This document shows, piece by piece, positions 43,325-62,757 of a stretch of 64,000 nt of DNA (position 1 is the stretch's first letter; each line of letters begins with the position of its first letter). The stretch is from Ruania rhizosphaerae (GTDB lineage: Bacteria > Actinomycetota > Actinomycetes > Actinomycetales > Beutenbergiaceae): NCBI RefSeq assembly GCF_009805705.1, contig NZ_VSMB01000009.1:1-64000 (forward strand), written 5' to 3'. A program made the translations under genes and the position numbers. Under the pieces are notes generated by a model, which searched no databases, was not told where the DNA came from, and saw only the letters and a program-made list of their open reading frames with translations.

Positions 43325-43396
43325 GCCGGCCCCCGTCCACGGGCCGAATAATTGACCCCTTCTCGGGTTTCACCCTGAGTTTCGGGCCCGGGGAGC
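43325..43396. repeat. 49-bp dispersed repeat, copy A (with flanks)
   Basis: The core 43341-43389 starts GGGCCGAATAATTGACCCC, contains the mini-stem GGGTTTCACCC and ends TTTCGGGCCC. Its ends are inverted relative to each other (GGGC.CGAA with TTCGGGCCC), allowing an outer hairpin. Its left flank also matches copy D inside cydC (62631-62694). The 3' flank GGGGAGC is shared with copy B. Confidence 0.8.
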
Positions 43397-43423
43397 GGTC
43401 GCCGCTGGGTCGGCCCGCTTCGC

Positions 43424-43472
43424 GGGTCGATTATTCGGCCCCTTGTTGGGTTTGACCCTGAGTTTCAGGCCC
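43424..43472. repeat. 49-bp dispersed repeat, copy B
   Basis: Begins GGGTCGATTATTCGGCCCC, has the inner mini-stem GGGTTTGACCC and ends TTTCAGGCCC. It starts 83 bp after the start of copy A. Confidence 0.8.
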
Positions 43473-43507
43473 GGGGAGCGCTGGTGGGTTGGTCAGCTGT
43501 AGTCCGC

Positions 43508-43556
43508 GGGTCGATTATTCGGCCCCTTCTCAGGGGCGACCCTGACTATCGGGCCC
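43508..43556. repeat. 49-bp dispersed repeat, copy C
   Basis: Begins GGGTCGATTATTCGGCCCC, has the inner segment GGGGCGACCC and ends TATCGGGCCC. It starts 84 bp after copy B. Together the three copies fill most of the 329-bp gene-free stretch after rsmD. Confidence 0.8.
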
Positions 43557-43613
43557 GCGGAGCTATCGGGCTCGTGTGGCGTGGTGACGGGCCAGGTGTG
43601 AATTCGGCGCCGG

Positions 43614-44738
43614 TCAGCGGGTCCAGGGAGCGCCGAGCTCGGAGAACGTCGCCAGCTCGGTTGCTACCCGTCGGCACCAGTCGTCGACCCCGTGGATCAC
43701 CCGGTAGGAGTCGGGGCCCTCGCCGACCTGGGTGAAGCAGTCGTCCGGCACCTGCGTGGGGTCCGGAGCGGTGCGGACCGCTTCGAGCACGCGCATGAAC
43801 GCACCGGTGTCGCGCACGTCCGCCAGCAACGGAGCGCCGTGCTCCAGGTGATCGAGGAGGTTCACGAACAGGCCGGTGCGCCCGACTTCCTCGGTCTCCT
43901 CGCCGGCAGCGGTGCGGACCACCAGCACGTCCGTGGTGTAGCGGAACTCGATCGTTCCCTCCGAGCCGTGCACCAGCACCCGCGGCTTGGTGTCCGGCTC
44001 TTCCGCCGCCAGCGTCAGGCCCAGGGCGATCGGGGTGCCCTTCGTCGTGAGCAACCGGACGGCGGAGGTGTCGTCGGCCTCGATGTCGTTGGCGTGGTAC
44101 AGGTCGACCACCACCTCGGCCACGTCCTCTGCCCGGGACGAGCCATCGATCCGCAGGGCTGACGCGATCGAGTGTGCCAGCGGGTTGGTCACCGCACCGT
44201 CGACCACCTCGACACCGTCCAGACGGCGCTGCCCGGCCCACCGGGAGCGGTCATAGTAGCTGCGCGCCCGGCGCCATAGGCCCAGGCCGCCGATGCCACG
44301 CACCTCGCCGATCCGGCCGGAGGTGACGATCTCGGCGATCCGCTCGAAGGCGTGCGAGCCGAAGCTCTGGAATCCGATCTGGACGGCTCTGCCGGTATCA
44401 TCGCTGACCTGCACGAGCCTCTCGAACTCCGCCAGCGAGGCCGTCGTCGGCTTCTCCAGCAGCACGTGCGCACCGGCGCGCATGGCCCGCTCGGCGAGCG
44501 GCAGATGTGTGTGGATCGGGGTGGCGAGCGTGACCACATCTGGGGTCACCTCGGCGAGCAGAGCATCGAGGTCGGAGTAGACCGCGGTGCCCTCGGGGAG
44601 GTTCCGCGCGCCCTCTCCGCCACGGGGGTCGGCCACCCCGACCAGACGTGCCCGGCCGGCCTCGGCGAGCTCGTTGATCTGGCCCAGGTGCTGAGCGCCG
44701 TATCCGTGGAGTCCGACGACGGCGAAGGTGATGGTCAC
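43614..44738 (-). CDS. Gfo/Idh/MocA-family oxidoreductase
   Basis: A 374-residue NAD(P)-dependent sugar or sugar-acid oxidoreductase. The N-terminal Rossmann fold reads FAVVGLHGYGAQHL, and HVLLEKPTTASLAEF is the family EKP motif. Start GTG 44738 overlaps the upstream DUF6807 stop (GTGA). The neighbours suggest a role in catabolism of a modified sugar; substrate not predictable. Confidence 0.88.
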   Translation of the reverse strand: MTITFAVVGLHGYGAQHLGQINELAEAGRARLVGVADPRGGEGARNLPEGTAVYSDLDALLAEVTPDVVTLATPIHTHLPLAERAMRAGAHVLLEKPTTASLAEFERLVQVSDDTGRAVQIGFQSFGSHAFERIAEIVTSGRIGEVRGIGGLGLWRRARSYYDRSRWAGQRRLDGVEVVDGAVTNPLAHSIASALRIDGSSRAEDVAEVVVDLYHANDIEADDTSAVRLLTTKGTPIALGLTLAAEEPDTKPRVLVHGSEGTIEFRYTTDVLVVRTAAGEETEEVGRTGLFVNLLDHLEHGAPLLADVRDTGAFMRVLEAVRTAPDPTQVPDDCFTQVGEGPDSYRVIHGVDDWCRRVATELATFSELGAPWTR

Positions 44739-45589
44739 GCGAGCTGCTCCAGTCGTTCGTAGAGGGTGGTGGCTTCGGTGGTGCTCAGTGCCCGGTCGGC
44801 GAGCACGGCCCACAGGTGCAGATCCAGGTGCCCGCCGGCGGGGATGACACGCTCGGCGTCCCACGCAACAGCAGGTCCGGCGCCCACATAGCCGGAGGTC
44901 CGCACGAACCACGGCAGGATCGCCTCGCGGGGTTGCCCCAGCAGCAGGCTCACCGGCCCGGTGCTGCGGTCCTGCACCAAGAGCAACCACGGCGAGATGG
45001 CGTTGCCGAGCGGATCCGTGCCGTCCGCCACTGTGGCCACCGTGGGGACGTCTTCACCGGAGAGCCGCCAGAACAGCCCGCCATAGCCGGCCCCGACCCG
45101 GCCACGGGTAGCGGGGGAGCCAATCGTCAGGTCCGCACCGCCGTCGGCGTGCAGCCGCGAGTGCCAGCGCAGCGTCCACACCTCGTGCTCAGGCAGCAGA
45201 TCGGCCAGAATCTCGCGGTCTTCGGTGAGTACGTGCGAACCAGCACCGTCCACCCATTGCAGCCGCTGGGAGATGCGGTGGTCGCCGGACTCGGTGCTCA
45301 GCGGCACCTGCCGGCCGTGGTTGTCGAGCATCTCGTACCCGGTGGGGTGCACGTAGGACTTACCGCCCCAGAACATCGTGCCGTTCACCTCGACCACGGC
45401 ATTGCTGACGCCGTAGTGATGGGTGTGATCCTCGGGCAGGATCTCGGTGAGCCCGACACCGTCGAGCGTGGTCACCGGGTGCAGGTACGGGCGAGGGGAG
45501 AGAGTGCCGGCCATGTCCTGGCCGTCTGCGTACCGGGCGACGTCGCGCGCTCCGATACGCAGCACGGGCTCGCCGTCAGGGGCGCTCAC
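44735..45589 (-). CDS. DUF6807 (PmoA-like) protein
   Basis: A 284-residue protein of the DUF6807 family: RPYLHPVTTLDGVGLTE, then EDHTHHYGVSNA with conserved His, SPWLLLVQD and late strands. Members are common in sugar-degradation clusters with Gfo/Idh/MocA and ThuA-like proteins; activity is not established. I prefer the GTG at 45589, six bases after AGGAG, over the ATG at 45655, because a TAGGGT promoter box just before that ATG would place transcription start at or after it. Confidence 0.8.
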   Translation of the reverse strand: MSAPDGEPVLRIGARDVARYADGQDMAGTLSPRPYLHPVTTLDGVGLTEILPEDHTHHYGVSNAVVEVNGTMFWGGKSYVHPTGYEMLDNHGRQVPLSTESGDHRISQRLQWVDGAGSHVLTEDREILADLLPEHEVWTLRWHSRLHADGGADLTIGSPATRGRVGAGYGGLFWRLSGEDVPTVATVADGTDPLGNAISPWLLLVQDRSTGPVSLLLGQPREAILPWFVRTSGYVGAGPAVAWDAERVIPAGGHLDLHLWAVLADRALSTTEATTLYERLEQLA

Positions 45590-45666
45590 GCTGTGCTCCT
45601 TGTTCTGCGGGTACTGGATAGCCACGCCTCGCCTCGCGGCGAAGGCAGCTTGCATGACACCCTATC

Positions 45667-45680
45667 GGCAAACGCTTACC
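45667..45680. promoter_or_regulatory. LacI-type operator between DUF6807 and ThuA genes
   Basis: GGCAAACGCTTACC, a CG-centred dyad typical of LacI-family regulators, in the divergent promoter region. It resembles the sites near the LacI gene at 56116. Confidence 0.5.
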
Positions 45681-45714
45681 ATCACGTGACCGGACCATCG
45701 TCAAAGGAGAGCAC

Positions 45715-46440
45715 GTGTCTGCAGACCATCGCACCGCCGTCGTGATCAGCGGAGCCGGACGCTACGCCGACCCCTGGCACGACTTCGAGGGCACGTCGGC
45801 CGCGCTCGGCGAACTGCTGGGCGACCGTGGTTTCGAGGCCCGGGTGCTGCGGACCGGTGAGGTCGAGTCCGCCGACCTGGGCCAGCCTGACCTGATCGTC
45901 GTGAATGCCGGCGGTGGCAGCACTCCGGTGGAGGTCTCTGAGGAGGCCGGAGACGTGCGCGCCCGGGACCTGCGCGACGCGGTGCTCGCTGCCGTGGCCG
46001 CAGGTGTGCCTGTGCTGGCCACCCACACCGGGTCGAACACGTTCTACGAGCACGATCAGTGGGCCCGGGCCCTCGGTGGCCGGTGGGTACCCAAGCACGA
46101 GGTCGAAGCGGGCACGGCGGCGCGTGCCTCCTGGCATCCGAAGCGCGGGCCGGCGCAGGTGCGGGTGAGCCCGGTACAGCACCCCATCACCGCGGGCCTG
46201 ACCGGGGCGGTGGAGATCGACGACGAGCGCTACACCGACCTGGAAGTCTCCCCGGAGGCGACCGTGCTGCTCGAGCACGACGAGGGCGGCCGCACCCACG
46301 CGCTCGTCTGGGTCGCGGACGCAGTCCCCGGCCTGCGAGGCAAGGCGGTCTATGACGCCCTGGGCCACGACGGCGGCGCGGTCCGCGCGCGGGTGCGGAC
46401 GCTGCTGCTGGACCGGGAGCTGGCCTGGCTGCTGAGCTGA
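45715..46440 (+). CDS. ThuA-like domain protein
   Basis: A 241-residue glutamine-amidotransferase-like fold, ThuA type: VVISGAGRYADPWHDFEGTS start, LIVVNAGGGS, GVPVLATHTGSNTF, HPITAGLTG and GKAVYDALGHDGGAV. ThuA-like proteins occur in sugar catabolic clusters, in which some take part in 3-keto-sugar or trehalose use. Start GTG 45715 follows AAAGGAG. It is divergent from DUF6807 and the oxidoreductase. Confidence 0.85.
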   Translation: MSADHRTAVVISGAGRYADPWHDFEGTSAALGELLGDRGFEARVLRTGEVESADLGQPDLIVVNAGGGSTPVEVSEEAGDVRARDLRDAVLAAVAAGVPVLATHTGSNTFYEHDQWARALGGRWVPKHEVEAGTAARASWHPKRGPAQVRVSPVQHPITAGLTGAVEIDDERYTDLEVSPEATVLLEHDEGGRTHALVWVADAVPGLRGKAVYDALGHDGGAVRARVRTLLLDRELAWLLS

Positions 46441-46469
46441 CGCGCGCGTGCGCTGCCGCACTGACGTGC

Positions 46470-46521
46470 GTTGCCCCGAATCGTCGGATCCCTGACGGTG
46501 GAGGCGACAGATCGCGGCAAC
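46470..46521. repeat. 52-bp dispersed repeat, intergenic copy
   Basis: Starts GTTGCCCCGAATCGTCG, then 18 unconserved bases, then CGACAGATCGCGGCAAC. The two arms form an imperfect 17-bp inverted repeat. It lies between the ThuA-like and altronate dehydratase stops. The other copy is inside cydC at 61562-61613, in the opposite orientation. Confidence 0.8.
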
Positions 46522-46535
46522 GCGTGGTCCGAGGC

Positions 46536-48089
46536 TTAGGTCACCGCACCCACGTGCCACGGAATGAACTCGTCCTGACCGAGGTCGAGCTCTTCGCTGA
46601 CGGTCTCGCGGCCGGAAGCGACCTCGACGATCATCCGGTAGATCTCCTCGCCCACCTCGGTGAGGCTGGCGGTGCCGTCGACAATCCGCCCGCAGTTGAG
46701 GTCCATGTCCTCGTGCATGCGTTCGTACATCGGGGTATTCGTGGCCAACTTGATCGAGGGCGCCGGCTTGCACCCGAGCACCGACCCCCGCCCGGTGGTG
46801 AAGCACACCACCGTGGCGCCGCCGGCGACCAGGCCGGTCACCGAGACCGGGTCGTAGCCGGGGGTGTCCATGAACGTGAACCCCTTCGCGGCAATCGGCT
46901 CGGCGTACTCGTACACGCCGGTCAGTTCGGCCGTACCGCCCTTGGCGACGGCGCCGAGCGACTTCTCGAGGATCGTGGTCAGGCCACCGGCCTTGTTCCC
47001 GGGGGAGGGGTTGTTGTCCAGGGTGCCCTCGCCGGCAGCGGTGTAGTCCTTCCACCACTCGATCCGGTCCAGCAGCCGCTGACCGACCTCGGGTGAGACC
47101 GCGCGCCGGGTGAGCAGGTGCTCGGCCCCGTACACCTCCGGGGTCTCGGCCAGGGTGGAGGTACCACCGGCCGCCACCAGCAGGTCCGAGGCGTACCCCA
47201 GGGCAGGATTGGCCGTGATTCCCGAGTAGCCGTCACTGCCGCCGCAGTTCAGGCCCAGGGTCAGGTGGGCGACGTCGGCCGGTTCCCGCCGCGCCTCGTT
47301 CACCCGCGGCATCATCTCCTGGATCTTCTCCACCCCGGCCCGCACGGTGGCCCGGATGCCCCCGAAGTCCTGGATGGTCATGGTCTCCACGTAGGCGCCC
47401 TCGGGCAGGCCCAGGCCGTCGACGAGCTGATTCACGGCGATCATCTCGCAGCCGAGCCCCAGCACCAGCAGTCCGCCGAAGTTCGGATGGTTGGCATACC
47501 CCCGCAGGGTGCGCAGCAGCATCTGCCCACCCTCGGAGTCCGGCACCAGCCCGCACCCGCTCTGGTGGGTGATCGCCATGACGCCGTCGACGTTCTCGAA
47601 CTCCTCCAGCCCCGTGTGGCGGAACTGGTCGGCGATCATGTTCGCTGAGCTCGCCGAGCAGTTCACCGAGGTGATCACGCCGATGTAGTTGCGGGTGCCC
47701 ACCCGTCCGTCGGGTCGGTGGTAGCCGAGGAAGGTGCGCGGCAGGTCACGTCCCTCGGGGAACGTCGGTTGCACCCGCGCGGTCCCGAACTCGTGCTCGC
47801 GTTCGTCGAGATCCATCCCGAGGTTGTGCGAGTGCACATGATCCCCGGGAGCGATCGCCGTCGTCGCCCGCCCGATCGACTGCCCGTACTTGAGCACCTG
47901 GCCACCCTGGGTGACCGGACGGACGGCCAGCTTGTGACCCCGGGGGATGGGCGCCGTCGTGCGAAACGCCTCCACCCCGGGTAGCGGGATCTCGGCACCG
48001 ATGGGCAGATCGGCCGTGGCCACAACCACGTGGTCCTCCTCCCGCAGGCGCAGGATGGGCGGCTCGGACGGGGTGGGATCGGCAGACAC
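46536..48089 (-). CDS. uxaA: Altronate dehydratase (UxaA/GarD family)
   Basis: A 517-residue two-domain dehydratase: an N-terminal SAF domain (about 1-100; HVHSHNLGMDL) and the large catalytic domain (TRNYIGVITSVNCSASS, AITHQSGCGL, LNCGGSDGYSGITANPALG, AELTGVYEYAEPI). UxaA makes 2-keto-3-deoxygluconate from altronate; GarD acts on galactarate. Because KdgK and Eda are encoded at 54215-55987, a feed into 2-keto-3-deoxygluconate is consistent. I start at GTG 48089, with AGGTC upstream; the longer frame runs antisense across coaD. Confidence 0.88.
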   Translation of the reverse strand: MSADPTPSEPPILRLREEDHVVVATADLPIGAEIPLPGVEAFRTTAPIPRGHKLAVRPVTQGGQVLKYGQSIGRATTAIAPGDHVHSHNLGMDLDEREHEFGTARVQPTFPEGRDLPRTFLGYHRPDGRVGTRNYIGVITSVNCSASSANMIADQFRHTGLEEFENVDGVMAITHQSGCGLVPDSEGGQMLLRTLRGYANHPNFGGLLVLGLGCEMIAVNQLVDGLGLPEGAYVETMTIQDFGGIRATVRAGVEKIQEMMPRVNEARREPADVAHLTLGLNCGGSDGYSGITANPALGYASDLLVAAGGTSTLAETPEVYGAEHLLTRRAVSPEVGQRLLDRIEWWKDYTAAGEGTLDNNPSPGNKAGGLTTILEKSLGAVAKGGTAELTGVYEYAEPIAAKGFTFMDTPGYDPVSVTGLVAGGATVVCFTTGRGSVLGCKPAPSIKLATNTPMYERMHEDMDLNCGRIVDGTASLTEVGEEIYRMIVEVASGRETVSEELDLGQDEFIPWHVGAVT

Positions 48090-48200
48090 GCAGAGACCTT
48101 CGCTCGCTGATGGGTCGTGATCACCCAGTCTACCCGAGAAACCGGTCTCTCGGGCGGTGTCGTCACGATGGTCGCGCCCCGGGAAGGTAAGTTGGCGGCC

Positions 48201-48698
48201 GTGACCTCTCGTATCGCCGTGTGCCCCGGATCCTTCGATCCGGTCACCCTCGGGCACCTGGACATCGTGCGCCGCGCGCGTACCCTGTTCGACGAGGTGG
48301 TGGTGGCCGTGGGGATCAACTCCGGCAAGGCGCCACTGCTGGACGCCGACACCCGCCTGCGGCTGTTCACCGACGCCGTCGCCGACCAGGCGGGTGTGCG
48401 GGTGGTGCGCATGCCCGGCCTGCTCGCCGACCTGTGCCACGAACTCGGGGCCAGCGCCATCGTCAAGGGCCTGCGGGGTGGCGCCGACTACGACGCCGAG
48501 CAACCGATGGCCTTGATGAACCGGCATCTGAGCGGTGTGGAGACGGTCTTCGTGACCGGTGCACCCGAACTCGCCCACGTTTCCTCCACCATGGTCAAGG
48601 ACGTCGCCCGGCACGGGGGCAGCATCAGCGACCTCGTTCCGCCCGCCGTCGACGATGCCGTCCGCACCGCCCTGCACCCGAAAGATGGACACTCATGA
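48201..48698 (+). CDS. coaD: Phosphopantetheine adenylyltransferase
   Basis: A 165-residue nucleotidyltransferase of coenzyme A synthesis. It opens with RIAVCPGSFDPVTLGHLDIV (the HxGH-type motif) and includes IVKGLRGGADYDAE and HVSSTMVKDVA. GTG 48201 is preceded by TAAGTT (48188-48193), a leaderless arrangement. Its stop overlaps the next start (ATGA). Confidence 0.96.
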   Translation: MTSRIAVCPGSFDPVTLGHLDIVRRARTLFDEVVVAVGINSGKAPLLDADTRLRLFTDAVADQAGVRVVRMPGLLADLCHELGASAIVKGLRGGADYDAEQPMALMNRHLSGVETVFVTGAPELAHVSSTMVKDVARHGGSISDLVPPAVDDAVRTALHPKDGHS

Positions 48699-49228
48699 GC
48701 AAAGCAGCAGAGCAGGGCGAGTCGCTGGTCGCGATCCTCGACGAGCTCGCCGACCTGGTCTCCTCCGCACGCTCGATGCCGATGTCAGCCTCCGTGCTCG
48801 TCAACCGCGCTGAAGTGCTCGAGCTGATCGACTCCGCGACCGGCGTGCTGCCTGACCAGATCACCCGCGCGGACTCCGTGGTAGCCGACGCCGACGCCGT
48901 GCTGCAGCGCGCGCGGCGTGAAGCCGGCACCATCGTGGAGAAGGCCAAGGAGCGGGCCGACGAGCTGGTCTCCCGGGAGGCCGTGGTGGCAGCAGCGAAC
49001 GAACGCGCCGAGAAGATCGTGGCTGAGGCGAAGGCCGCGGCCGAGAAGCTCTCCCGCGAGGCCGACGACTACTGCGACCGCCAGCTCGCCCAGTTCGAGA
49101 TCGACCTGAACTCCATCTCCTCCCAGGTGGCGGCCGGGCGTGCCCGGCTGATGGAGCGCACCCGCGGCCGCAGCGCCGGGGCCGACGAGACCAGCGGCGG
49201 GAACGACAAGGAGGCGACCGACTCATGA
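48695..49228 (+). CDS. Coiled-coil protein, cell-division/ATP-synthase-B-like
   Basis: A 177-residue hydrophilic protein with an Ala/Glu/Arg-rich helical stretch (about 60-165; QRARREAGTIVEKAKERADEL, KIVAEAKAAAEKLSREADD) likely to form a coiled coil. It sits between coaD and yceD, where DivIVA-like helical proteins are common in actinobacteria. No enzymatic motif is visible. Start ATG 48695 overlaps coaD; its stop overlaps yceD (ATGA). Confidence 0.78.
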   Translation: MSKAAEQGESLVAILDELADLVSSARSMPMSASVLVNRAEVLELIDSATGVLPDQITRADSVVADADAVLQRARREAGTIVEKAKERADELVSREAVVAAANERAEKIVAEAKAAAEKLSREADDYCDRQLAQFEIDLNSISSQVAAGRARLMERTRGRSAGADETSGGNDKEATDS

Positions 49229-49797
49229 CGCCCTTCCAGATCTCCACCCACGACCTGGGCCGACGGCCCGGATCGATGCGGACCCTCACCCTCGACGTGC
49301 CCGTCGCCGAGCAGATGGGCAACGAGGTGATCGCCGTCCGGGCCGGCAGCGAGGTAGCCCTCGATCTGCGGCTGGAAGCCGTGATGGACGGCGTGCTCGT
49401 GACTGGCACCGCGCAGGCCGTTGCCGAGGGCGAATGCGTGCGCTGCCTGACGGATGTCTCCCTCGACCTCGACGCGGACATCACCGAGATGTTCGCCTAC
49501 CCCGGCACGCAGGACGCCAGCGAGATGGGGGAGGACGAGGAGTTGTTGCCCGAGCTCGATGGGGAGACGCTGGACCTCGAACCCACGGTGACGGACGCCG
49601 TCGTGCTGGCCCTGCCGTTCCGGCCGCTGTGCCGGCCGGACTGCCCGGGCCTGTGCCCGGACTGCGGCATCCGTCTCGACGAGGCGGAGGAGGGGCACGC
49701 ACACGAGAACCTGGACCCGCGCTGGTCGGCCCTGGCGGCGCTCGCGGGTGCCGAGGATGCTCCGGATGACGCCCCGGACGAGGAGCCTCAGCAGTGA
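49225..49797 (+). CDS. yceD: DUF177 (YceD) protein
   Basis: A 190-residue DUF177 protein with the family [14 protein letters not shown] motif and a C-terminal zinc-ribbon-like [16 protein letters not shown], then an acidic tail. YceD-family proteins are linked to ribosomal RNA or ribosome maturation. rpmF, which often follows it, is not present: the stop overlaps the rnc start (GTGA). Confidence 0.9.
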
Positions 49798-50510
49798 CCG
49801 CACGCGCCGTCGACGAACTGGTCGAGGCGCTGGGCATCGAGGTCGATCCCGAGCTGCTCGTCCTGGCCCTCACGCACCGGTCCTTCGCGCACGAGGCCGG
49901 CGGTATCCCGACCAACGAGCGGCTGGAGTTCCTCGGCGACTCGGTGCTCGGGGTGATCGTCACCGAGCACCTGTACCGCACCCACCCCGACCGCGCTGAG
50001 GGGGACCTGGCGAAGATGCGCGCGGCCACCGTCTCCCAGCGTGCGCTGTCGGTGGTGGCTCGCGAGATGGGGCTGGGGGAGTACCTGCTGCTCGGGCGGG
50101 GTGAGCAGACCACCGGCGGGCACGACAAGGACTCCATCCTGTGTGACACGCTCGAAGCCGTGATCGGGGCGGTGTACCTGTGCCACGGGCTCGAACCGAC
50201 ACGCGCGTTCGTGGAGCGGATCGTGGGGGGACGGCTCACCGACGCCGCCGGTCTAGGTGCCGGCCTGGACTGGAAGACCAGCGTGCAGGAGCTCGCGGCC
50301 GAGCGTGGCCTGGGCGCCCCGGAGTACCGCATCGAGGCGACCGGCCCGGACCATCAGCGGCACTTCACCTCCACGCTCATGCTCGGCGACCAGTCGTGGG
50401 GTGTCGGTGAGGGGTCGGCGAAGAAGATCGCCGAGCAGCGTGCGGCCGAGCAGGCCTACCGGGCCCTCGAAGAGGACACAGCGCCCGACGACGTCGCACA
50501 CGAGGCGTAG
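49794..50510 (+). CDS. rnc: Ribonuclease III
   Basis: A 238-residue double-strand RNA endonuclease: the RNase III signature [14 protein letters not shown], the second acidic site [11 protein letters not shown], and a C-terminal dsRNA-binding domain ([33 protein letters not shown]). Overlaps yceD and mutM by a few bases, so it is part of a tightly packed operon. Confidence 0.96.
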
Positions 50511-51424: not shown

Positions 51425-51545
51425 GTTCTCCGTGTGGGGGCGCCTCGCCACTTCCATGCTGGCACCCGACGTCAGTCACTCCGAGTATCGGCCGCGATGC
51501 CAGCGGACACGAGGTCGATGCCTCGCACGTGCCGTCGCGTCTCGG

Positions 51546-53208: not shown

Positions 53209-53356
53209 CGGGCTATGTGACCGGTCGCTCGCGGTCTACGGCCAGGAGGGGGAGCCGTGCCGGCGATGGGGCACCGCGATCGTGCGCGAGGCATTCGCGA
53301 ACCGGTCGTCGTTCTTCTGCCCGAGGTGTCAGCGGGCGGGCAGACCTCAGGCATGA
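53209..53356 (+). pseudogene. Remnant of mutM 3' end
   Basis: The 114 bp at 53221-53334 match mutM 51301-51414 with about ten substitutions and no gap. In frame it reads [20 protein letters not shown] and [11 protein letters not shown] with a stop at 53354, but the first zinc pair is C-R-R-W: the second Cys is lost. There is no start. It appears to be the displaced end of an original mutM gene, left on the far side of the hipBA insertion. Confidence 0.8.
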
Positions 53357-53414
53357 TGGCGTTGGCCGATCCGCTGTCGCGCTCACGCCGTCCGCCAGAC
53401 TATAGGCTCGTGTG

Positions 53415-53975: not shown

Positions 53976-54106
53976 GCAACTCGCTGACGCGAATCAGACC
54001 CTGCTCATGCGGGCATCCGGACACATGGAGGAGACGAGGGCGCTCTCGACGGCGATCGGGGAGTTCTCGTGGACATGGCCGAGGATGCCCCGGCGGCGAC
54101 CTGGTC

Positions 54107-54137
54107 GCGGGTCCGACACCCAGACTGCCGGACCCGC
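54107..54137. terminator. Hairpin terminator, first of two
   Basis: GCGGGTCCG (54107-54115) with CGGACCCGC (54129-54137), a perfect 9-bp stem. It lies in the gene-free stretch 53976-54214 between converging transcripts. Confidence 0.55.
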
Positions 54138-54165
54138 GGCCACGCCGTCGACGGGAGGTGAATCC

Positions 54166-54200
54166 GGGCCGGCCGATAGTGCAGTGCCACCGGCCGGCCC
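54166..54200. terminator. Hairpin terminator, second of two
   Basis: GGGCCGGCCG (54166-54175) with CGGCCGGCCC (54191-54200), a perfect 10-bp stem and 15-base loop, just beyond the kdgK stop. Likely bidirectional. Confidence 0.65.
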
Positions 54201-54214
54201 AGGTCAGGCGATGA

Positions 54215-55315: not shown

Positions 55316-55348
55316 GAAATCCCTCGTCGAATTGGTCGTCAGGTCGGG

Positions 55349-55987
55349 TCAGGCAGCGGCGAGCGCGACGGCCTCGCGGGTCAGTTCGCTCACACGGTCG
55401 AAGTTGCCGGCGGCGATCTCGTCCCGCGGCACCATCCAGGAGCCGCCGACGGCGAGCACGGCACTGACTGCGGTGTACTCGGCCAGGTTCTTGGGGCCGA
55501 TGCCGCCGGTGGGAACGAAGCGCAGTCCACCGAAGGGGGCGGCGAGGGCCTTGATGGCCTTGGCGCCGCCGGAGGTCTCGGCCGGGAAGAACTTCACGAC
55601 CTCCAGGCCCTCGGCGAGCGCTGCCTGCACCTCCGTGGCGGTCACTGCGCCCGGGAGGGGGAGGACCCCGCGTTCGATACACCGGCGCACGACGGCCTGC
55701 GAGAACCCGGGGGAGACCACATAGGAGGCTCCGGCGTCCACGGCCGCATCGACCTGGTCCGGGGTCAGGACCGTCCCGGCGCCGACCAGCATGTCGCCCC
55801 GGGCGCTCATCGCCTTGATCGACTCCACCGCTGCGGCGGTGCGGAACGTCACCTCGGCCACGGGGAGGCCGCCGGCCACGAGCGCCTCGGCGAGCGGGGC
55901 GGCGGAGGCGGCGTCGTCGAGTACGACGACGGGAACGAGGCGGGCGGCGCCGATGCGCTCCAGCATCTCGGGGGACTGCACTGTCAT
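55349..55987 (-). CDS. eda: KDPG/KHG aldolase
   Basis: A 212-residue class I aldolase that splits 2-keto-3-deoxy-6-phosphogluconate to pyruvate and glyceraldehyde-3-phosphate. The Glu of VAEVTFRT and the Schiff-base Lys in LEVVKFFPAE are present, with PTGGIGPKNLAEY at the phosphate site. AGGAG lies before ATG 55987. It is divergent from a LacI regulator with operator-like sites between. Confidence 0.95.
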   Translation of the reverse strand: MTVQSPEMLERIGAARLVPVVVLDDAASAAPLAEALVAGGLPVAEVTFRTAAAVESIKAMSARGDMLVGAGTVLTPDQVDAAVDAGASYVVSPGFSQAVVRRCIERGVLPLPGAVTATEVQAALAEGLEVVKFFPAETSGGAKAIKALAAPFGGLRFVPTGGIGPKNLAEYTAVSAVLAVGGSWMVPRDEIAAGNFDRVSELTREAVALAAA

Positions 55988-56025
55988 GTCTCTCCTTGTG
56001 TGACCGGGTGTGCGGTGCTGGGCCA

Positions 56026-56035
56026 CAAACGTTTG
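56026..56035. promoter_or_regulatory. LacI operator O1 (CAAACGTTTG)
   Basis: A perfect 10-bp CG-centred palindrome 39 bp upstream of eda, in the divergent region with the lacI-type gene. Confidence 0.6.
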
Positions 56036-56069
56036 CAAACAATCGTGTGGCGGACACGCTAGCATGTGC

Positions 56070-56102
56070 AACATTCAAGGGACAATGTTCTGCAAGCGTT
56101 TG
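56070..56102. promoter_or_regulatory. LacI operator O2 and adjacent inverted repeat
   Basis: AACATT-8-AATGTT (56070-56089) is an inverted repeat, and CAAGCGTTTG (56093-56102) is a near-palindromic LacI site next to the regulator's Shine-Dalgarno. Together with O1 they make autoregulation and control of eda-kdgK likely. Confidence 0.55.
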
Positions 56103-56115
56103 TAGGAGGCGACGT

Positions 56116-57093
56116 ATGGTCACGACGCTCCGGGACGTCGCCGATGCGGCCGGCGTTTCGATGGCCACCGTCTCCCGCGCGCTCGCGGGGTCATCGGTCG
56201 TCGCAGCCGTGACGCGTGAGCGGGTGCAGCGGCTGGCGCAGGAGCTGGACTACCAGCCGAACCGGGCCGCCCGCCAGCTGGTCACCGGACGCGGGCAGGC
56301 GATCGGCCTGGTGGTCCCGGACCTGCAGAACGCCTTCTACGCCTCCGTCGCCACCGGGATGCAGCGGCGCGTCCGGGACGCGGGGCTGAATGCGATGATC
56401 GCCGACACGGACGAGGATCCGGAGCGCGAGTTGGAGGTACTCGGGCAACTCGCGATGGTCTGTGACGGCGCCGTGCTCGCCTCCTCCCGCACGAGTGATT
56501 CGGCGCTCGCCGAAGTGGCCGGCCGCACGCGGGTGGTGCTGGTCAACCGGGTGCTCGAGGGTGTGCCGGCCGTGGTGGGCGACAACGCCGACGGCATCAC
56601 CCAGGCACTGCGGCACCTGGCAGCGCTCGGGCACACCAGAATCGGCTACGCCGGTGGGCCGCCCACCTCCTGGTCCGATGCGCGCCGGAGGGAAGGGTTG
56701 CGAGCAGCCGAAGCGGCCGGTATCGCCAGTGCGGAAGCCGTCGTGGACCTGGGGGCCTTCCGCCCGGGTTCGGCGGGCGGGATCGACGCCGCCGATCAGG
56801 CACTGGCTGCCAGGGTGACGGCGGTGCTCGCCTTCAACGATCAGCTTGCCCTGGGCATCCTGGGTCGCCTCGCCGACCGGGGCGTGCCTGTTCCGGAACG
56901 TATGAGCGTGGTCGGATTCGACGACGTCCCGGTGGCGCGCCTGCTCGCGCCGCCGCTGACGACGGTCGCGGTGCCGGCCCTGGAGATGGGGGCAGCGGCG
57001 GTGGATCTGCTACTCGCCTCGGCCCCGGAGACGCGGGTGCTGCCGGTGGAGCTTCAGGTGCGGCGCTCCACTGCCGAACCGTGCCCGGCCTGA
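56116..57093 (+). CDS. LacI-family regulator of eda-kdgK
   Basis: A 325-residue regulator with an N-terminal LacI helix-turn-helix (TLRDVADAAGVSMATVSRAL) and hinge (YQPNRAARQL), then a periplasmic-binding-like effector domain (GLVVPDLQNAFYASVATGM, AVLAFNDQLALGI, VVGFDDVPVARLL). ATG 56116 follows AGGAGG. It is divergent from eda-kdgK, so the effector is probably a uronate-pathway intermediate (inference). Confidence 0.93.
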   Translation: MVTTLRDVADAAGVSMATVSRALAGSSVVAAVTRERVQRLAQELDYQPNRAARQLVTGRGQAIGLVVPDLQNAFYASVATGMQRRVRDAGLNAMIADTDEDPERELEVLGQLAMVCDGAVLASSRTSDSALAEVAGRTRVVLVNRVLEGVPAVVGDNADGITQALRHLAALGHTRIGYAGGPPTSWSDARRREGLRAAEAAGIASAEAVVDLGAFRPGSAGGIDAADQALAARVTAVLAFNDQLALGILGRLADRGVPVPERMSVVGFDDVPVARLLAPPLTTVAVPALEMGAAAVDLLLASAPETRVLPVELQVRRSTAEPCPA

Positions 57094-57130
57094 CCCAGCC
57101 GGCCGTGCCCGGCCATGCCGAAGTGACACA

Positions 57131-57172
57131 GATGCGTCGAGCCGCGCACCATCGTGCCGCGTGCGACGCATC
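57131..57172. terminator. Hairpin after the LacI gene
   Basis: GATGCGTCG (57131-57139) with CGACGCATC (57164-57172), a perfect 9-bp stem enclosing a small inner stem GCAC/GTGC. Probably ends the LacI transcript. Confidence 0.5.
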
Positions 57173-57223
57173 CCGGTCGGTCGCGCTAGGGGATGGCCGT
57201 CCACCTGGTCGTATGCTGAATGA

Positions 57224-57868
57224 GTGAGCCCCCCGACTCGCGTACTCATCGTCGACGACCACGAGATCGTCCGCCGCGGCGTGGTGGACGTGATCAACAC
57301 GGCCGACGACCTGACCGTCGTCGCCGAGGCCTCGACCGTGGCCGAGGCGATCCAGCGCGCCGAGCTCACCCGCCCCGATCTGTTGCTGGTGGACCTGCAG
57401 TTGCCCGACGGCACGGGGGTGGACGTCATCGATGGCGTCCGTGCCCTGCTACCCGAGGTGCGTGCCGTCGTGCTCACCTCCTTCGGTGACCCGCAGGCAC
57501 GGACCGCCGCGAAGACAGCCGGCGCCCATGCCTTCGTGCTCAAATCCGTGCGAGGTGGGCAGATCCTCGATGCGGTCCGTGCCGTCGCAGCCGGGCGCAC
57601 GCTCTTGCGTGACACCCCGGCCGAACCGCGCGGCGACGATCCGTTCGAGTTGCTCACCCCCACCCAGCGCCGCATCGTCGAGCTCATCGGGGACGGCCTG
57701 TCCAACCGGGAGGTCGCCGAGCGGCTCGGCGTCGCGGAGAAGACCGTCAAGAACCACGTCACCTCGCTGCTGGCCACACTCGGTCTGCAGCGACGCACAC
57801 AGGTGGTCGCGTGGGTCACCGGACGTCGCCGTGACCAGGACCCGCAGTGGCGGCACGCACCGACCTGA
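57224..57868 (+). CDS. NarL/LuxR-family response regulator, DevR-like
   Basis: A 214-residue regulator with a receiver domain (VLIVDDHEIVRRG; phosphoacceptor Asp in LLLVDLQLPDG; Lys in FVLKSVRGG) and a LuxR helix-turn-helix (LTPTQRRIVELIGDGLSNREVA, EKTVKNHVTSLLATL). The most plausible partner is the GAF histidine kinase at 59321-60931, on the other side of the dipeptidase gene. TATGCT (57212-57217) precedes GTG 57224 at the leaderless spacing. Confidence 0.9.
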   Translation: MSPPTRVLIVDDHEIVRRGVVDVINTADDLTVVAEASTVAEAIQRAELTRPDLLLVDLQLPDGTGVDVIDGVRALLPEVRAVVLTSFGDPQARTAAKTAGAHAFVLKSVRGGQILDAVRAVAAGRTLLRDTPAEPRGDDPFELLTPTQRRIVELIGDGLSNREVAERLGVAEKTVKNHVTSLLATLGLQRRTQVVAWVTGRRRDQDPQWRHAPT

Positions 57869-57889
57869 GCGCCGATTACGCTCGCACCC

Positions 57890-59293
57890 ATGCACGAACA
57901 CACCAGTGACATCCCCGGGGCCAGCGTCACCCTCACCGGGGCCGTGACCGACCTGATGCCGCAGGCTCTCTCCGACCTGACCGAACTGGTCTCCTACCGA
58001 TCGGTGCAGGACCCTGCCGTCGAGGACCCCGAGCAGTGCCGCCTCGCCGCCGAGTGGGTGCGGGAACGCCTCGTCGAGCTCGGCCTGACCGATACGGCAC
58101 TGGTGCGCACCCCGGACGGAAGCGACGCCGTCATCGGGCACTACGAGGGCCCGCCCGGTGCGCAGCGAGTGCTGCTCTACGCGCACTACGACGTGCAGCC
58201 CGCCCCCGCTGAGGGCTGGCGCACCGACCCGTTCACGCTGACGTTCGCCGATGGGCGCTACTACGGCCGCGGGGCCGCTGACTGCAAGGGGAGCGTGGTC
58301 AGCCATCTCACGGCGCTGCGGGCTCTGCGTGCGGTGCGCGGGGCCGATCCTGCCGACCCTGATCCCTACCCCGTCTCTCTCACAGTCGTGATCGAGGGAT
58401 CGGAGGAGCAGGGGACCGCCGGCCTGGAGCAGTACGTGGCCGCGCACCCGGAAGAGTTCGCCGCCGACGTCATCCTCATCCAGGACACCGGCAACGTGAA
58501 GGTCGGCCAGCCCACCCTGACCACCGCCCTGCGCGGCATGGTGGACGTGACCGTGCGGGTGGAGTCCCTGGCCGGGCAACTGCACTCCGGTGCCTTCGGT
58601 GGTGCCGCCCCGGACGCGCTGGCGGCCCTGATCGCCATGCTCGCCTCGCTGAAGGATGATCGCGGCAACACGACGATCGACGGGCTCGACGCCACCGGCA
58701 CCTGGCCCGGCGCCCCGTACGACGAGGCCGCCTTCCGGGCCGATGCCGGGATGCTGGAGGGTGCCGAGGTGACCGGCTCGGGAACGGTGGCCGACATGTT
58801 GTGGGCGCGCCCCGCCGTCACCGTGCTCGGGATCGATGCCCCCGCCGTGGTGGGTTCGGTGCCGGCCATCCAACCCAGCGCGGCTGCCCGGGTGAGCCTG
58901 CGGGTGCCGCCGGGAGTCGACACCGGCGATGCCGCCGAGAAGCTGCAGGCTCACCTGCGTCGCGTCGCCCCGTGGGGTGTGCGGGTGGCCACCGAGCTCG
59001 TGGGGCAGGGGTCGGCCTTCGGGGCACGTACCGACACCGAGGCGTTCGCGCTGCTGGAGCAGGCGCTCACGGATGCCTTCGGCACCCCCACGATCACCTC
59101 CGGCCAGGGCGGATCCATCCCATTGACGGCGGCCCTCGCCTCCGCGCAACCGGATGCCTCGATCGTGATGCTGGGTCTGAGCGACCCGGCCAGCCAGATG
59201 CACGCCGCGAACGAGAGCGTCCACCCCGGCGAGCTGGAGAACATGGCCGCCGCGGTGGCGATGTTCCTGCAGCGCCTGGGCGAGCGGGGCTGA
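57890..59293 (+). CDS. M20-family dipeptidase
   Basis: A 467-residue zinc peptidase of the M20 family. Metal ligands are visible in YAHYDVQP, GRGAADCKGS, IEGSEEQG, IQDTGNV and the late MHAANESVH; the dimerisation domain (GQLHSGAFGGAAPDALAAL) is intact. TACGCT (57877-57882) lies before ATG 57890, so it may be leaderless. Confidence 0.92.
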   Translation: MHEHTSDIPGASVTLTGAVTDLMPQALSDLTELVSYRSVQDPAVEDPEQCRLAAEWVRERLVELGLTDTALVRTPDGSDAVIGHYEGPPGAQRVLLYAHYDVQPAPAEGWRTDPFTLTFADGRYYGRGAADCKGSVVSHLTALRALRAVRGADPADPDPYPVSLTVVIEGSEEQGTAGLEQYVAAHPEEFAADVILIQDTGNVKVGQPTLTTALRGMVDVTVRVESLAGQLHSGAFGGAAPDALAALIAMLASLKDDRGNTTIDGLDATGTWPGAPYDEAAFRADAGMLEGAEVTGSGTVADMLWARPAVTVLGIDAPAVVGSVPAIQPSAAARVSLRVPPGVDTGDAAEKLQAHLRRVAPWGVRVATELVGQGSAFGARTDTEAFALLEQALTDAFGTPTITSGQGGSIPLTAALASAQPDASIVMLGLSDPASQMHAANESVHPGELENMAAAVAMFLQRLGERG

Positions 59294-59320
59294 CGGCAGC
59301 CGCCGTGCGGTGGTCGGGCA

Positions 59321-60931
59321 TCACTGCGGATATAGCTGGGCGTGTGCCGCGGTCCACGTGAGCTGGGCGCCGCGCCGCGGGCCCGGTCCGGCCCCCGCCT
59401 GGAGCGAGCACGTCCCCCCGTGCCGGCGGGCGCGCCCGGCGAGGTTCGCGAGACCGGAGCGGCGCGTGACGGCCAGATCTGGCCCCACGCCGTCATCGGC
59501 CACGGTGACCACCAGCAACTGAGCCTGCCCGCCCCGGGCGCTGATCGTGACCGTGACGTGCTCGGCGCGGGCGTGACGGGCGGCATTGGCGAGACCCTCA
59601 CGGACCACGGCGACGACGTCATCGGCCAGATCGTCCTCCACGCGGGCCAGGTCTGCGGTGACCGTGAACCCCACCTGCAGACCCAGCGCGGTGCGGGCGT
59701 GCGCGAGTTCCCGTTCCACCCGAGCCTGCAACGGGAGGCGCTCCTCCTCAGTACGGAGCGCGTGCACGATCCGGCGGATCTGGCCCACGGCCTCGTCCAC
59801 ACCGTCCAGCGCCTCCTGCAACTCCTCGGCCTGCGGCTCACCGAGCTGGTCCTGCAGGTGCCCCAGCCGCAGGCCGGTCGCGAACAGTTGCTGGATCGCC
59901 AGATCGTGCAGGTCACTCGCGATCCGGCCGCGCTCGGAGAGCAGATCGGCGAGGCTCTCGGCCTGCCGGGCCTGGGAGAGGGTGATCGCCAGCGCCGCCT
60001 GCCGGGCGATCGACTCGGCGATAGTGAGCTCGTTCTCGGTGAATTCCACCGCACCGGTGTGCCGCAGCAGGATCAGCACACCGAGACCCTCATCCCCGGC
60101 CATCAATGGGGCGTAGAGCGAGGGACCGTACCGACCGAACTGGGGCACTCGCAGGTTCCTGGCCCGGGCGAAGGAGTCGACGATGATGCCGTACCCGTCC
60201 CGCAGCACGGTCATCGCGCGTCCGTTCGGGGGCATCGCGATCCCCACCAGATCACCGACCGGGTCCCCGTCGGCGAACTCGATCACCCAGTCCGAGCCGA
60301 CCCCGGGCAGGACCAGCACAGCCGTGTCGGCCTTGGCCACCTGGCGGACCCGGCGGGCGATGAGCGCGAGGGCGTCCTCGATCTCGGTGCCGGACAGGAG
60401 GGTGGTGGTGATCTCCTGCCCGACGGCGAGCCACCGTTCCCGCGTCCGTGCCGCCTCGTAGAGGCGTGCGTTCTGCACGGCGACCCCTGCGGCAGTGGCG
60501 AGCAGGTGCACACCGGCAGCGTCGTCGTCGGCGAACGGCTCGGACTTCCCGGCCACGTAGAGGCGGCCGTAGACCTGCCCACGCACCCGTACCTGCACCC
60601 CGAGGAAGCGGGCCGTGCGGGGGTGACCGGGGGGCAGATCCGCGAACCGCGGGTGGTCGACGAGATCGTCCAGCAGCAGCGGCTCGGTACCGATGGCCTC
60701 CAGCACCTCCACCCCGTGCGGGTGCGTGAGGAGTGCTTGCACGTGCGGCGCGTCACCGGTCTCGATGTGGGTCTCGACGTCCGCGGCGGCGTCGAGCACA
60801 CCGATCGCCGCGTACGGGGCACCGGTGAGGTCGGCCGCAGCCTCGACGACGTTGCGGAGCACCTCCTCCAGCTCCAGGTGCGAGGTGACCGCGAGCATCG
60901 CCTGCAGCATCTCGGCGGGAGCGGGTCTCAT
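59321..60931 (-). CDS. GAF-domain sensor histidine kinase (DevS-like)
   Basis: A 536-residue cytoplasmic kinase with two GAF domains (about 15-160 and 175-330; GVLDAAADVETHIETGD, GLGVLILLRHTGAVEF), a HisKA_3 phosphoacceptor region (RGRIASDLHDLAIQQL) and an HATPase domain (VREGLANAARHA, GRARRHGGTCSL). It is like mycobacterial DevS/DosT kinases, which sense redox gases through a haem-bearing GAF; I cannot confirm a haem-binding His here. Its ATG overlaps the cydC stop (ATGA), coupling it to the cytochrome bd assembly transporter. Confidence 0.88.
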   Translation of the reverse strand: MRPAPAEMLQAMLAVTSHLELEEVLRNVVEAAADLTGAPYAAIGVLDAAADVETHIETGDAPHVQALLTHPHGVEVLEAIGTEPLLLDDLVDHPRFADLPPGHPRTARFLGVQVRVRGQVYGRLYVAGKSEPFADDDAAGVHLLATAAGVAVQNARLYEAARTRERWLAVGQEITTTLLSGTEIEDALALIARRVRQVAKADTAVLVLPGVGSDWVIEFADGDPVGDLVGIAMPPNGRAMTVLRDGYGIIVDSFARARNLRVPQFGRYGPSLYAPLMAGDEGLGVLILLRHTGAVEFTENELTIAESIARQAALAITLSQARQAESLADLLSERGRIASDLHDLAIQQLFATGLRLGHLQDQLGEPQAEELQEALDGVDEAVGQIRRIVHALRTEEERLPLQARVERELAHARTALGLQVGFTVTADLARVEDDLADDVVAVVREGLANAARHARAEHVTVTISARGGQAQLLVVTVADDGVGPDLAVTRRSGLANLAGRARRHGGTCSLQAGAGPGPRRGAQLTWTAAHAQLYPQ

Positions 60932-62757
60932 CGGTCCAGTCTCGCCGACTCGTCCAGGCGGAGCACCTCATCCGCAGCGTCGATCCCTCGCTCGTCGTGG
61001 GTGATCAGCAGGATCCCGCGCTCGCGTCCGAGGGTGAGGATGTCCTGCTGCAGCGCCAGGGCGGTATCGGCGTCGAGGTGTTCGGTCGGTTCGTCCAGGA
61101 TCAGCAGTGGGGCGGGGGAGCACAGTGCGCGTGCCAGCAGCAGCCGGCGGCGCTCGCCGCCGGAGAGTGTCTCGGCGCTGACGAGCGTGTCGAGGCCCTC
61201 GGGCAGGGCGGCAACCAGGCCGTTGAGTCCGACCCGCTCCAGCACGCGGTGGGCCTCCTCTACGTCTACGTCTCCGCGTGCCACGCGCAGATTCTCCAGC
61301 ACCGTGGTGGAGAACAGGTGGGCATCCTCGGGGGTGAAAGAGACGGCGTCCGTGGGGGTGCGGCCGCCGCGGATCTCCAACTTGCCGCCGATCGGTTCGA
61401 TGAGACCTGCCAGGGTGAGGGCCGTCGTGGTCTTCCCCGATCCGCTGGGGCCGAGGAGCACGACGGCGCGACCCGGTTCCAACTGAAGATCGATCCCGCT
61501 GACCACCGTGTGACCTGGCCAGCCGCACGCGAGACCCCGCGCGAGGACCTTCGCATCGTGTGTTGCCGCGTTCTGTCGCTTCGACCGCACGCGAGGCGAC
61601 GATTCGGGGCAACGCTCGGGGCCGGCGGCGTGCAACAACGCCCGGATCCGGCGAGCTGCCGAGGCTGACCGGGTCACCTGCACGGCGGCGGCAGGCAGCG
61701 CTGCTGTCGCCTCGAAAGCCGCCATGGGGGTGAGCACCACCACGGCCAGCTCCACCGGCGTGAGGGTGCCCGCCGTCATGGCCGGGATGCCGATCACCAG
61801 CGCCGCAACGGTGGCGATGCCCGACGTCAGCACGCCGATCCCGTGTGCGAGGGCAGCGGGGCCCGCGGCGCGATCCCGGGCTCCCCGCAGGCCGGACTCC
61901 GCCTCGGCGAGTGCGGTCCGAGCGCGCGGCATCCCACCCTGGACCCGCAGCTCGGTGGCGCCGTCGAGGATGGTGGTGGTCGCAACCGAGACGTCCCGGC
62001 GGTGCTCCATCGCATCGACCTCTGCCACACGCGCCGCTCGGGCCGCGAGGACCGGTCCGAGCACCCCGGCGATCAGCAGGGTGAGGGCGAGCACCGCGCC
62101 GATGGCAGGCGAGAACGCACCCACCAGGATCACGCTGCCGGTCGAGACCACGGCGGCCACAGCGGCCGGCAGGAGGCCGCGGACCACCACATCACCCACG
62201 GCGTCGGCATCCGCGCCGATCCGCGAGAGCAGGTCCCCGCGCCGCAGACCCAGGGTCGCCTCGGGGCGACCCACGGCGAGAGTCCGGTAGAGCCGCTCGC
62301 GCAACGTGGCGACTCCCCGCAGCGCGACATCGTGTGAGGCCAGCCGGTCCAGGTAGCGGAACAATCCGCGCGAGATCCCCAGCGCGCGGACGGTGACCAC
62401 TGCGACGGTCAGGTCGAGGACGTGTGGCATCTGGCTCGCTCGGGCGATCAGCCACGCCGAGACGGCTGCGAGCCCGACAGCCGCGGAGAGGGTCAGCGAC
62501 CCCCATGCCACCGCTACCAGCGCGCGCCGGCGGGAGACGTCCAAGAGCGGAAGAATCGCCCGGACCGCGCGCAGGTCGGAGAGCAGGCCGCCCGATCGAG
62601 CGCCGCCTGCCGACCGGCCCCCTCTTCCCGGCCGGCCCCCTCCACGGGCCGAAAGATCGGCCCCTTCTCGGGATTCACCCTGACTTTCGGGCCCCTGAAG
62701 CACGTCGGCGGGCCGGGTCGGCTCGACCGGACTGCCGGAACGTGTCTCGGCGCTCAC
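60928..62757 (-). CDS. cydC: Thiol reductant ABC exporter subunit CydC
   Basis: A 609-residue ABC exporter half: about 75 residues of unusually Gly/Ser/Arg-rich N-terminus, six membrane segments, and an ATPase domain with Walker A GPSGSGKTT, signature LSGGERRR and Walker B LLILDEPTEHLD. CydDC exports thiols and is needed for cytochrome bd assembly. Start GTG 62757 overlaps the cydD stop (GTGA). Two dispersed repeats lie in frame: the 49-bp type at residues 22-38 and the 52-bp type (reverse orientation) at 382-399 in the linker to the ATPase. Confidence 0.9.
   Translation of the reverse strand: MSAETRSGSPVEPTRPADVLQGPESQGESREGADLSARGGGRPGRGGRSAGGARSGGLLSDLRAVRAILPLLDVSRRRALVAVAWGSLTLSAAVGLAAVSAWLIARASQMPHVLDLTVAVVTVRALGISRGLFRYLDRLASHDVALRGVATLRERLYRTLAVGRPEATLGLRRGDLLSRIGADADAVGDVVVRGLLPAAVAAVVSTGSVILVGAFSPAIGAVLALTLLIAGVLGPVLAARAARVAEVDAMEHRRDVSVATTTILDGATELRVQGGMPRARTALAEAESGLRGARDRAAGPAALAHGIGVLTSGIATVAALVIGIPAMTAGTLTPVELAVVVLTPMAAFEATAALPAAAVQVTRSASAARRIRALLHAAGPERCPESSPRVRSKRQNAATHDAKVLARGLACGWPGHTVVSGIDLQLEPGRAVVLLGPSGSGKTTTALTLAGLIEPIGGKLEIRGGRTPTDAVSFTPEDAHLFSTTVLENLRVARGDVDVEEAHRVLERVGLNGLVAALPEGLDTLVSAETLSGGERRRLLLARALCSPAPLLILDEPTEHLDADTALALQQDILTLGRERGILLITHDERGIDAADEVLRLDESARLDR
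61562..61613. repeat. 52-bp dispersed repeat, copy inside cydC
   Basis: The reverse complement of this stretch matches 46470-46521: the 17-base left arm is identical, the middle 18 bases differ, and the right arm differs by one base. It is read through in frame by cydC and encodes the TMD-ATPase linker. Confidence 0.8.
62631..62694. repeat. 49-bp dispersed repeat, copy D inside cydC (with left flank)
   Basis: The core 62646-62694 starts GGGCCGAAAGATCGGCCCC and ends TTTCGGGCCC, same length and orientation as copies A-C after rsmD. The flank before it (GCCGGCCCCCTCCAC) also matches copy A's flank with one base missing. It is translated by cydC on the other strand. Confidence 0.8.

Follow-up and report, generated by a model that had tools for sequence, protein, structure and literature searches.

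The described systems that come closest to the locus analyzed here are the REPtrons, whose repetitive extragenic palindromic (REP) sequences are dispersed outside genes, form clusters and dimers, and have a cognate gene lying between its own repeats (Di Nocera et al., PMC3733652, who also report CGTC REPs without a known mobilizer), and the type IV antitoxin operators of AbiEi and Rv2827c: AbiEi occupies a pair of 23-bp inverted repeats with 3 bp between them, and the pairs of Rv2827c are 13 bp apart (PMC7319586). The DNA in question is a stretch of 64,000 nucleotides (“the window”) at the start of contig 43 (NZ_VSMB01000009.1) of the Ruania rhizosphaerae genome (G000; 4,426,037 bases in 43 contigs), carrying four copies of a palindromic element, E1, clusters of which lie, elsewhere in the same genome, on both sides of a gene designated X1. 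E1/X1 works most like a REPtron, with a REPIN-like organization, and its sites look like AbiEi operators, yet it fails membership of the REPtrons on the very enzyme that defines them: REPtrons use a Y1 HUH transposase, whereas the partner of E1 appears to be a DUF559/Vsr-like nuclease with an AbiEi-like N-terminus, and the mobility of its elements is one that we infer. Shared with AbiEi and Rv2827c are the AbiEi-like N-terminal part and the paired ~23-bp inverted repeats (23 + 15 + 23 bp in E1), unlike the nuclease-like C-terminus of X1 and the distribution of E1, which flanks its gene on either side and recurs at dozens of loci unrelated to it. We put at about 0.6 the probability that E1 is the cognate DNA site of X1, an AbiEi-like/DUF559-Vsr nuclease encoded between inverted E1 clusters, in an organization that is REPtron-like with an unrelated enzyme; what carries this reading is the E1 family with its spacing, the palindromes found around X1 and around many X-like genes, and the co-distribution of element and gene.

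The four copies in the window (A to D, Table 1) have cores of exactly 49 bp, spaced 83 and 84 bp apart within the cluster of three, at the places where a sequence-only reading had put them; the inner GGG...ACCC mini-stem described there is better read as two boxes whose centers lie 31 bp apart. The conserved unit, at 61 bp, is wider than this core, has CTCC/GGAG-like ends in the 30-copy consensus, and is imperfectly palindromic, with arms of about 23 bp on either side of a variable ~15-bp center. Each of its boxes is 18 bp long, a box alpha (GGGCCGAANNTTCGRCCC) being joined either by a box beta (ACCCTGANTTTCGGGCCC) or by a second alpha (30 alpha-beta and 11 alpha-alpha units with the 31-bp spacing imposed). 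When the spacing was left free and neighbors less than 40 bp apart were considered, it was 31 bp in 43/43 cases in G000 and in 39/39, 17/18, and 6/8 cases in the congeners G004, G001, and G002, respectively, amounting to 105 of 108 in the four genomes, the exceptions being 30, 30, and 32 bp, and 4 of the 84 own boxes scoring at least 17 were solitary, with no partner at 30–32 bp. The box scan covered loci fetched through pattern or model matches rather than every base of the genomes, with L042 and L044 left out of it and L013 (a single weak box) omitted as falling below the cluster threshold.

That the E1 copies are a non-chance family is evident from the whole-genome pattern search, which at up to three mismatches returned 74 forward and 75 reverse matches, the reversed pattern used as control giving 28 in each direction (a palindromic E1 place can be listed on both strands, i.e., counted twice), and from a 30-copy model giving 86 matches at E ≤ 1 in the same genome, 32 of them full-length at E ≤ 1.1e-13, including the 30 training copies; the “only four copies” outcome considered by the sequence-only reading is far exceeded, and at least 33 clusters were counted in G000 by the box scan of the fetched own loci. 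The E1 model R1 had matches in 5 of 79 genomes at E ≤ 0.001: 55 in G000, 52 in G004, 20 in G001, 13 in G002, and one weak place in G069; E1 was not found with it in the congeners G003, G005, G006, and G007 under laxer filters (best E 0.296), and a strict exact pattern had no match in viral contigs. A match to an E1-bearing stretch over more than 400 bp of flanking DNA exists for 27, 14, and 6 of the 30 own E1 stretches in G004, G001, and G002, respectively, and across 15 aligned E1 groups the boxes and their spacing are mostly kept, the flanks have diverged, and the number of units varies (the cluster of the window has three units in G000, two in G004, and one in G001). For copy D, which had been placed inside cydC, the length and the open frame hold, while our own crude gene caller starts cydC downstream, leaving the copy between cydD and cydC; within the open cydC frame, it occupies an N-terminal stretch that is hypervariable rather than conserved, where it has the same orientation in G004, is flipped in G001, and is absent from the E1-free G005, so that no conservation in a repeat-free species is seen. 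As a separate observation, Rpn (PF04754) genes adjoin some E1 elements, on one side only in the fetched stretches, and at L039:1533-2135 and L203 (G004), in two genomes, a shortened Rpn (Transposase_31) gene has an E1 unit at its 5' end.

Inverted E1 clusters are found on both sides of X1 in G000, G004, G001, and G002, with a double unit on each side in the first two genomes and single units in the other two. X1 orthologues (67–70% identity to the G001 protein) exist in exactly these four E1-bearing congeners, the best matches elsewhere in the genus being 37% in G003, 39% in G005, and 33% in G007, with none in G006. G005 is sister to the E1-bearing G002 with 100% support (a five-protein tree, with two proteins available for five genomes only); the rsgA-sdhB gap, where X1 would be expected, is closed in G005, and at the one further place that could be aligned, beside the gene at L236:2377-3222, this genome has a short, box-free gap, the other neighbor differing from that in G002. 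The G005 lineage has, thus, probably lost X1 and all of its E1 copies together, which is the simplest history because G005 is sister to G002, a genome sharing element loci with the G000 lineage. Two side observations concern the X1 locus: its two sides (L244:1505-1639 and 2624-2758) are, in G000, inverted copies of a ~105-bp stretch, and the rsgA-sdhB gap of the X1-free G006, G003, and G007 (L266, L267, and L268) holds other inverted repeats, GGAGGT...ACCTCC-like by eye.

As for the protein, X1 (304 residues in G000) appears, by family profiles, to consist of an AbiEi-like N-terminus and a C-terminal DUF559/Vsr-like nuclease domain of the PD-(D/E)XK type. Residues 32–170 of the G001 protein match AbiEi in a defense library (E 8.5e-4), as does the X relative of Arthrobacter ERGS1:01 (E 6.3e-11), and in an alignment of 33 X-like proteins DUF559 is matched by 18, REase_MTES_1575 by 17, and AbiEi_4 by 2 at E ≤ 0.05, MTES_1575 being described as a novel Vsr-type restriction endonuclease (REase) in PMC3710099. 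E193, D226, Y238, and G240 are invariant in the 33 proteins, and conservation is 90% or higher at E237, H243, D252, and R255. Of these residues, E193, D226, E237, and H243 are the ones that we take to be catalytic in a DUF559/Vsr-like nuclease. Profile matches of the C-terminal part were the endonuclease-like protein 3hrl, with E 0.0023, and the mobile intron protein 3r3p, with E 0.85, both presumably Vsr/DUF559-like. The AlphaFold2 model of X1 is a confident one (predicted local distance difference test score, pLDDT, 92.2; predicted template modeling score, pTM, 0.87), and Foldseek aligns 3r3p_B to it with E 0.84 and TMt 0.55. The likeness of X1 to the homing endonuclease I-Bth0305I (3r3p) and to 3hrl consists of these weak profile matches to its C-terminal part; unlike them, X1 is flanked by dispersed palindromes, has an additional AbiEi-like N-terminal part, and has no intron or intein in sight.

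X-like genes were detected in 103 of the 396 genomes of the order (E ≤ 1e-20), and 39 loci, these being the best matches fetched rather than every match, had their flanks scored by the best ungapped match between the 350 bp upstream and the 350 bp downstream. A score of at least 16, set as the threshold, was reached by 30 of the 39, vs. 1 of 75 cydC loci (of the 80 kept out of 542, 5 were too short for flank scoring), whereas none of the 8 rsmD/rsgA loci and none of the 117 shuffled pairs (maximum 13) reached it; L252, which is among the 30, owes its high score mainly to a long duplication and also has E2 pairs (see below) on both sides. Outside the genus, 20 of 25 X-like loci reached the threshold, and cross-locus flank pairs did so in 6 of 600 cases, four of the six coming from loci with visibly related arms. 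Self-palindromes scoring at least 12 were present in 37 of 50 X-like flanks vs. 19 of 150 cydC flanks, and the shared flank elements are two-armed palindromes, often of 55–66 bp, the sequence of which differs in most genomes. In G163, the arm motif occurs 12 times, as six inverted pairs 40–41 bp apart, two of them flanking the X-like gene and four lying elsewhere; in G358, it occurs 15 times, as five such pairs with the same distances, two of which lie beside the X-like gene, and as five arms without a partner, the control giving 0 matches for these two genomes; eight other genomes have the motif 0–3 times, and the reversed control 0–1 times. Two Arthrobacter X-like genes in named plasmid records (~30% identity in a protein search), fetched blind to their flanks and scored on 400 bp of them, are likewise both flanked by shared palindromes, which occupy 11 places on two StoSoilB13 replicons and 5 on one ERGS1:01 plasmid, flanking copies included, and none in any other of 72,556 records (E ≤ 0.01). 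Searches of an open-access library yielded no report pairing DUF559/Vsr-like or AbiEi-nuclease genes with flanking palindromes.

A second palindrome family, E2, with arms TTGCC..TCTGTCGCC offset by 32 bp, lies on both sides of a second X-like gene in G004, G002, G001, and G007. Its arm matches, forward and reverse taken together, number 21 in G004, 19 in G002, 17 in G001, 11 in G003, 9 in G000, 7 in G007, 3 (without a pair) in G005, and 0 in G006, compared with 0–3 in six control genomes of the family and 0–2 for the reversed control. The cydC gene of the window carries both E1 and E2, and its E2 copy is also present in G004, G001, and G002 and missing from G005.

If E1 is indeed the site of X1, two X1 subunits might use their N-terminal part to bind both of its arms from the same face of the helix, as the AbiEi likeness and the rigid spacing would suggest; binding of the arms by two subunits can fairly be supposed, because the 23 + 15 + 23 layout of E1 resembles the AbiEi/Rv2827c geometry. 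The nuclease domain might then nick or cut E1, possibly in the form of an extruded hairpin, and repair could copy, flip, duplicate, or delete units, by which the element population would persist, and might also seed new E1 copies near the 3' ends of genes; once X1 is lost, E1 would be expected to vanish as well, a joint absence that is seen in one lineage. Elements that are cut and repaired would be consistent with the flips of E1, with the gain and loss of units, and with their disappearance together with X1. Still tentative, and falling somewhat short of even odds in our estimation, is the wider proposal of a new class of selfish palindromes in Actinobacteria, in which the ~60-bp two-armed palindromes of each lineage would have an AbiEi-DUF559/Vsr nuclease of their own that binds, cuts, and propagates them, convergent with the REPIN-RAYT systems and relying on PD-(D/E)XK instead of HUH, with specificities that co-diversify and are lost together.

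Several results weigh against a nuclease that acts on, and spreads, its own palindromes. With regard to the protein, Pfam yields nothing for X1 of G000 at E ≤ 0.05, X1 of G001 matches REase_MTES_1575 (PF18741) with E 0.093, under the cut-off, and has no match in NCBIfam, and Foldseek found no PDB match to the X1 model at E ≤ 0.001. With regard to the elements, 9 of the 39 X-like loci have no shared flank element at the threshold, the copy number outside the genus is low (six pairs in G163 and five in G358), E2 pairs occur in G000 and G003 with no detected E2-flanked X-like gene, and the joint absence of X1 and E1 in G005 is a single event in a genome that is also devoid of an E2 pair. The movement of E1 is something that we infer, because no clean element-only insertion was found: neither such an insertion nor a target duplication was seen, the few loci compared differing by ~125 bp or more (L037 vs. 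G004, and L204 of G004 vs. G000 and G001, with differences exceeding the element itself), and the empty sites in relatives that the sequence-only reading had in view did not turn up in clean form. Lastly, a gene-neutral control of 84 genes of 700–1100 bp, taken irrespective of identity, had matching flanks in 3 cases, all of them within the 19 genes that have a gap on either side. One of these is a LytR-type gene beside a similar coding sequence; another, a membrane-protein gene of G005 (L310:14430-15700), lies between ~63-bp palindromes with arms like GCCGCACAANGTTGCGCTCGGCGG, which are another element family of E1 size in an E1-free genome. The third, an observation in its own right, is the gene of an AbiEi-like protein in G001 (L329:7000-8400) between shared GGAATCC...GGATTCC palindromes, with a defense-library AbiEi match at E 5.5e-6, a Pfam AbiEi_4 match at E 5.5e-4 (under the cut-off), and no BLAST similarity to X1.

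Among the other explanations, the one that survives best, although we find it doubtful, is that X is a DNA-binding regulator or nucleoid organizer, which would bind the arms, repress itself, and insulate or punctuate the chromosome, with its nuclease inactive or irrelevant and its sites spread by ordinary recombination. E1 fits a duplex protein site better than an RNA stem, because the letters of its boxes lack the covariation expected of a hairpin in RNA. No compensatory changes were found in the box hairpins, all five covariation measures being at the level of shuffles, 18 of 30 copies have a mismatch at pair 10-21 of box alpha, and the covariation of the outer stem, reached by 4 of 500 shuffles, is yet exceeded by some slid controls; Rfam gave no match at gathering score, the four matches in 501 bp being at chance level (E 2.9–9.2). 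As single-stranded DNA, the four window copies have folding z-scores of -2.33, -1.35, -4.19, and -2.47, two neighboring controls have -0.16 and -1.16, and L278, an example from outside, has -9.67. In tandem units, the nearest boxes are 42–84 bp apart, near whole helical turns (~4–8), the phasing over 13 distances being strong (R 0.93 at 10.45 bp, 0 of 1500 nulls) and becoming weak once these are collapsed to six values (R 0.91, 77 of 3000 nulls), as most distances are 52–53 bp and partly copies of one another. The missing covariation, the rigid spacing of the boxes, the near-whole-turn placement of the units, and the largely inherited element loci (the 27 of 30 own stretches matched in G004) would all suit a regulator, as would the repression by AbiEi of its own promoter through paired inverted repeats, described in PMC7319586. 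Autoregulation, however, leaves unexplained the element downstream of the X gene and the copies near unrelated 3' ends, recombination alone does not account for different element families going with different X-like genes, and the nuclease-type acidic residues E193, D226, and E237 are invariant or nearly so in the 33 X-like proteins.

Less probable is a self-marking or defense device, in which X would cut DNA unless the elements are present or bound, or the elements would serve as tags of self. The AbiEi matches of the N-terminal part come from a defense library, and the domain following it is nuclease-like, but 50,697 phage records contain no X match at E ≤ 1e-5, and neither a toxin nor a methylase was noticed beside X1 in the fetched flanks, which were inspected by eye; the apparent lack of an AbiEii (DUF1814) toxin gene among these neighbors would set X1 apart from the AbiE type IV toxin-antitoxin system.

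We consider it very improbable that E1 units are bidirectional transcription terminators or hairpins of mRNA 3' ends, repeated by chance. Their location near stop codons speaks for this: the 33 clusters comprise 16 in gaps between tandem genes, 11 convergent, 3 divergent, 2 in called open reading frames, and 1 at a contig edge, so that convergent gaps hold 11 and divergent gaps 3 of the 30 classified intergenic ones (the baseline, 29 adjacent gene pairs in the window, is 17 tandem, 6 convergent, and 6 divergent), and in the tandem gaps the median distance, according to the crude gene caller, is ~58 bp to the stop codon of the preceding gene and ~107 bp to the start of the following one. The exact 31-bp spacing of two boxes, the mismatched alpha pair and the shuffle-level covariation reported above, the patchy occurrence within one genus, and the flanking of X-like genes are nevertheless not what terminators would lead one to expect.

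E1 as a classical REP moved by a REP-associated tyrosine transposase (RAYT, of the Y1 HUH type) is rejected as next to impossible, for, palindromic, dispersed, mostly extragenic, and composite as it is, no match to PF01797 (Y1) was found in its own genome (the control being positive in 5 of 14), and X1, the gene flanked by it, has no Y1 match and encodes another type of enzyme. A GTAG or CGTC end tag was not seen, by eye, in the 30-copy consensus. From the REP-like palindromic element of the sequence-only reading, the abundance, the position mostly between genes near their 3' ends, and the palindromic form remain; the RAYT partner was not found, and the mobility stays putative.

With E1 as the site of an AbiEi-like/DUF559-Vsr nuclease, the element and its relatives point to an undescribed repeat-plus-nuclease system in actinobacteria, where the position of the RAYT would be occupied by a second, unrelated type of enzyme in a large bacterial group. 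This suggests a function for a common and barely annotated nuclease family and might explain some of the hairpins that are now taken for terminators in high-GC genomes.

Table 1. Coordinates of the E1 and E2 copies in the 64,000-nucleotide window and of the X1 gene elsewhere in the same genome.
Feature	Position	Core	Strand	Remarks
E1 copy A	43335..43395	43341-43389	+	boxes centered at 43349.5 and 43380.5; model E 6.3e-19
E1 copy B	43418..43478	43424-43472	+	model E 4.3e-18
E1 copy C	43502..43562	43508-43556	+	model E 2.5e-16
E1 copy D	62640..62700	62646-62694	+	model E 4.6e-19; cydC on - strand
E2 copy	61563..61612		.	within cydC coding region; arms offset 32 bp
E2 copy, diverged	46470..46521		.	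between two convergent genes; one arm exact, the other, 32 bp before, diverged
X1 gene	G000:C22:100498-101409			between inverted E1 clusters; neighbors rsgA-like and sdhB-type by eye

Elsewhere in the window, the tRNA-Val called by ARAGORN at 41426-41518 falls inside a well-scoring permease-like open reading frame (41096-42736) and is probably false.

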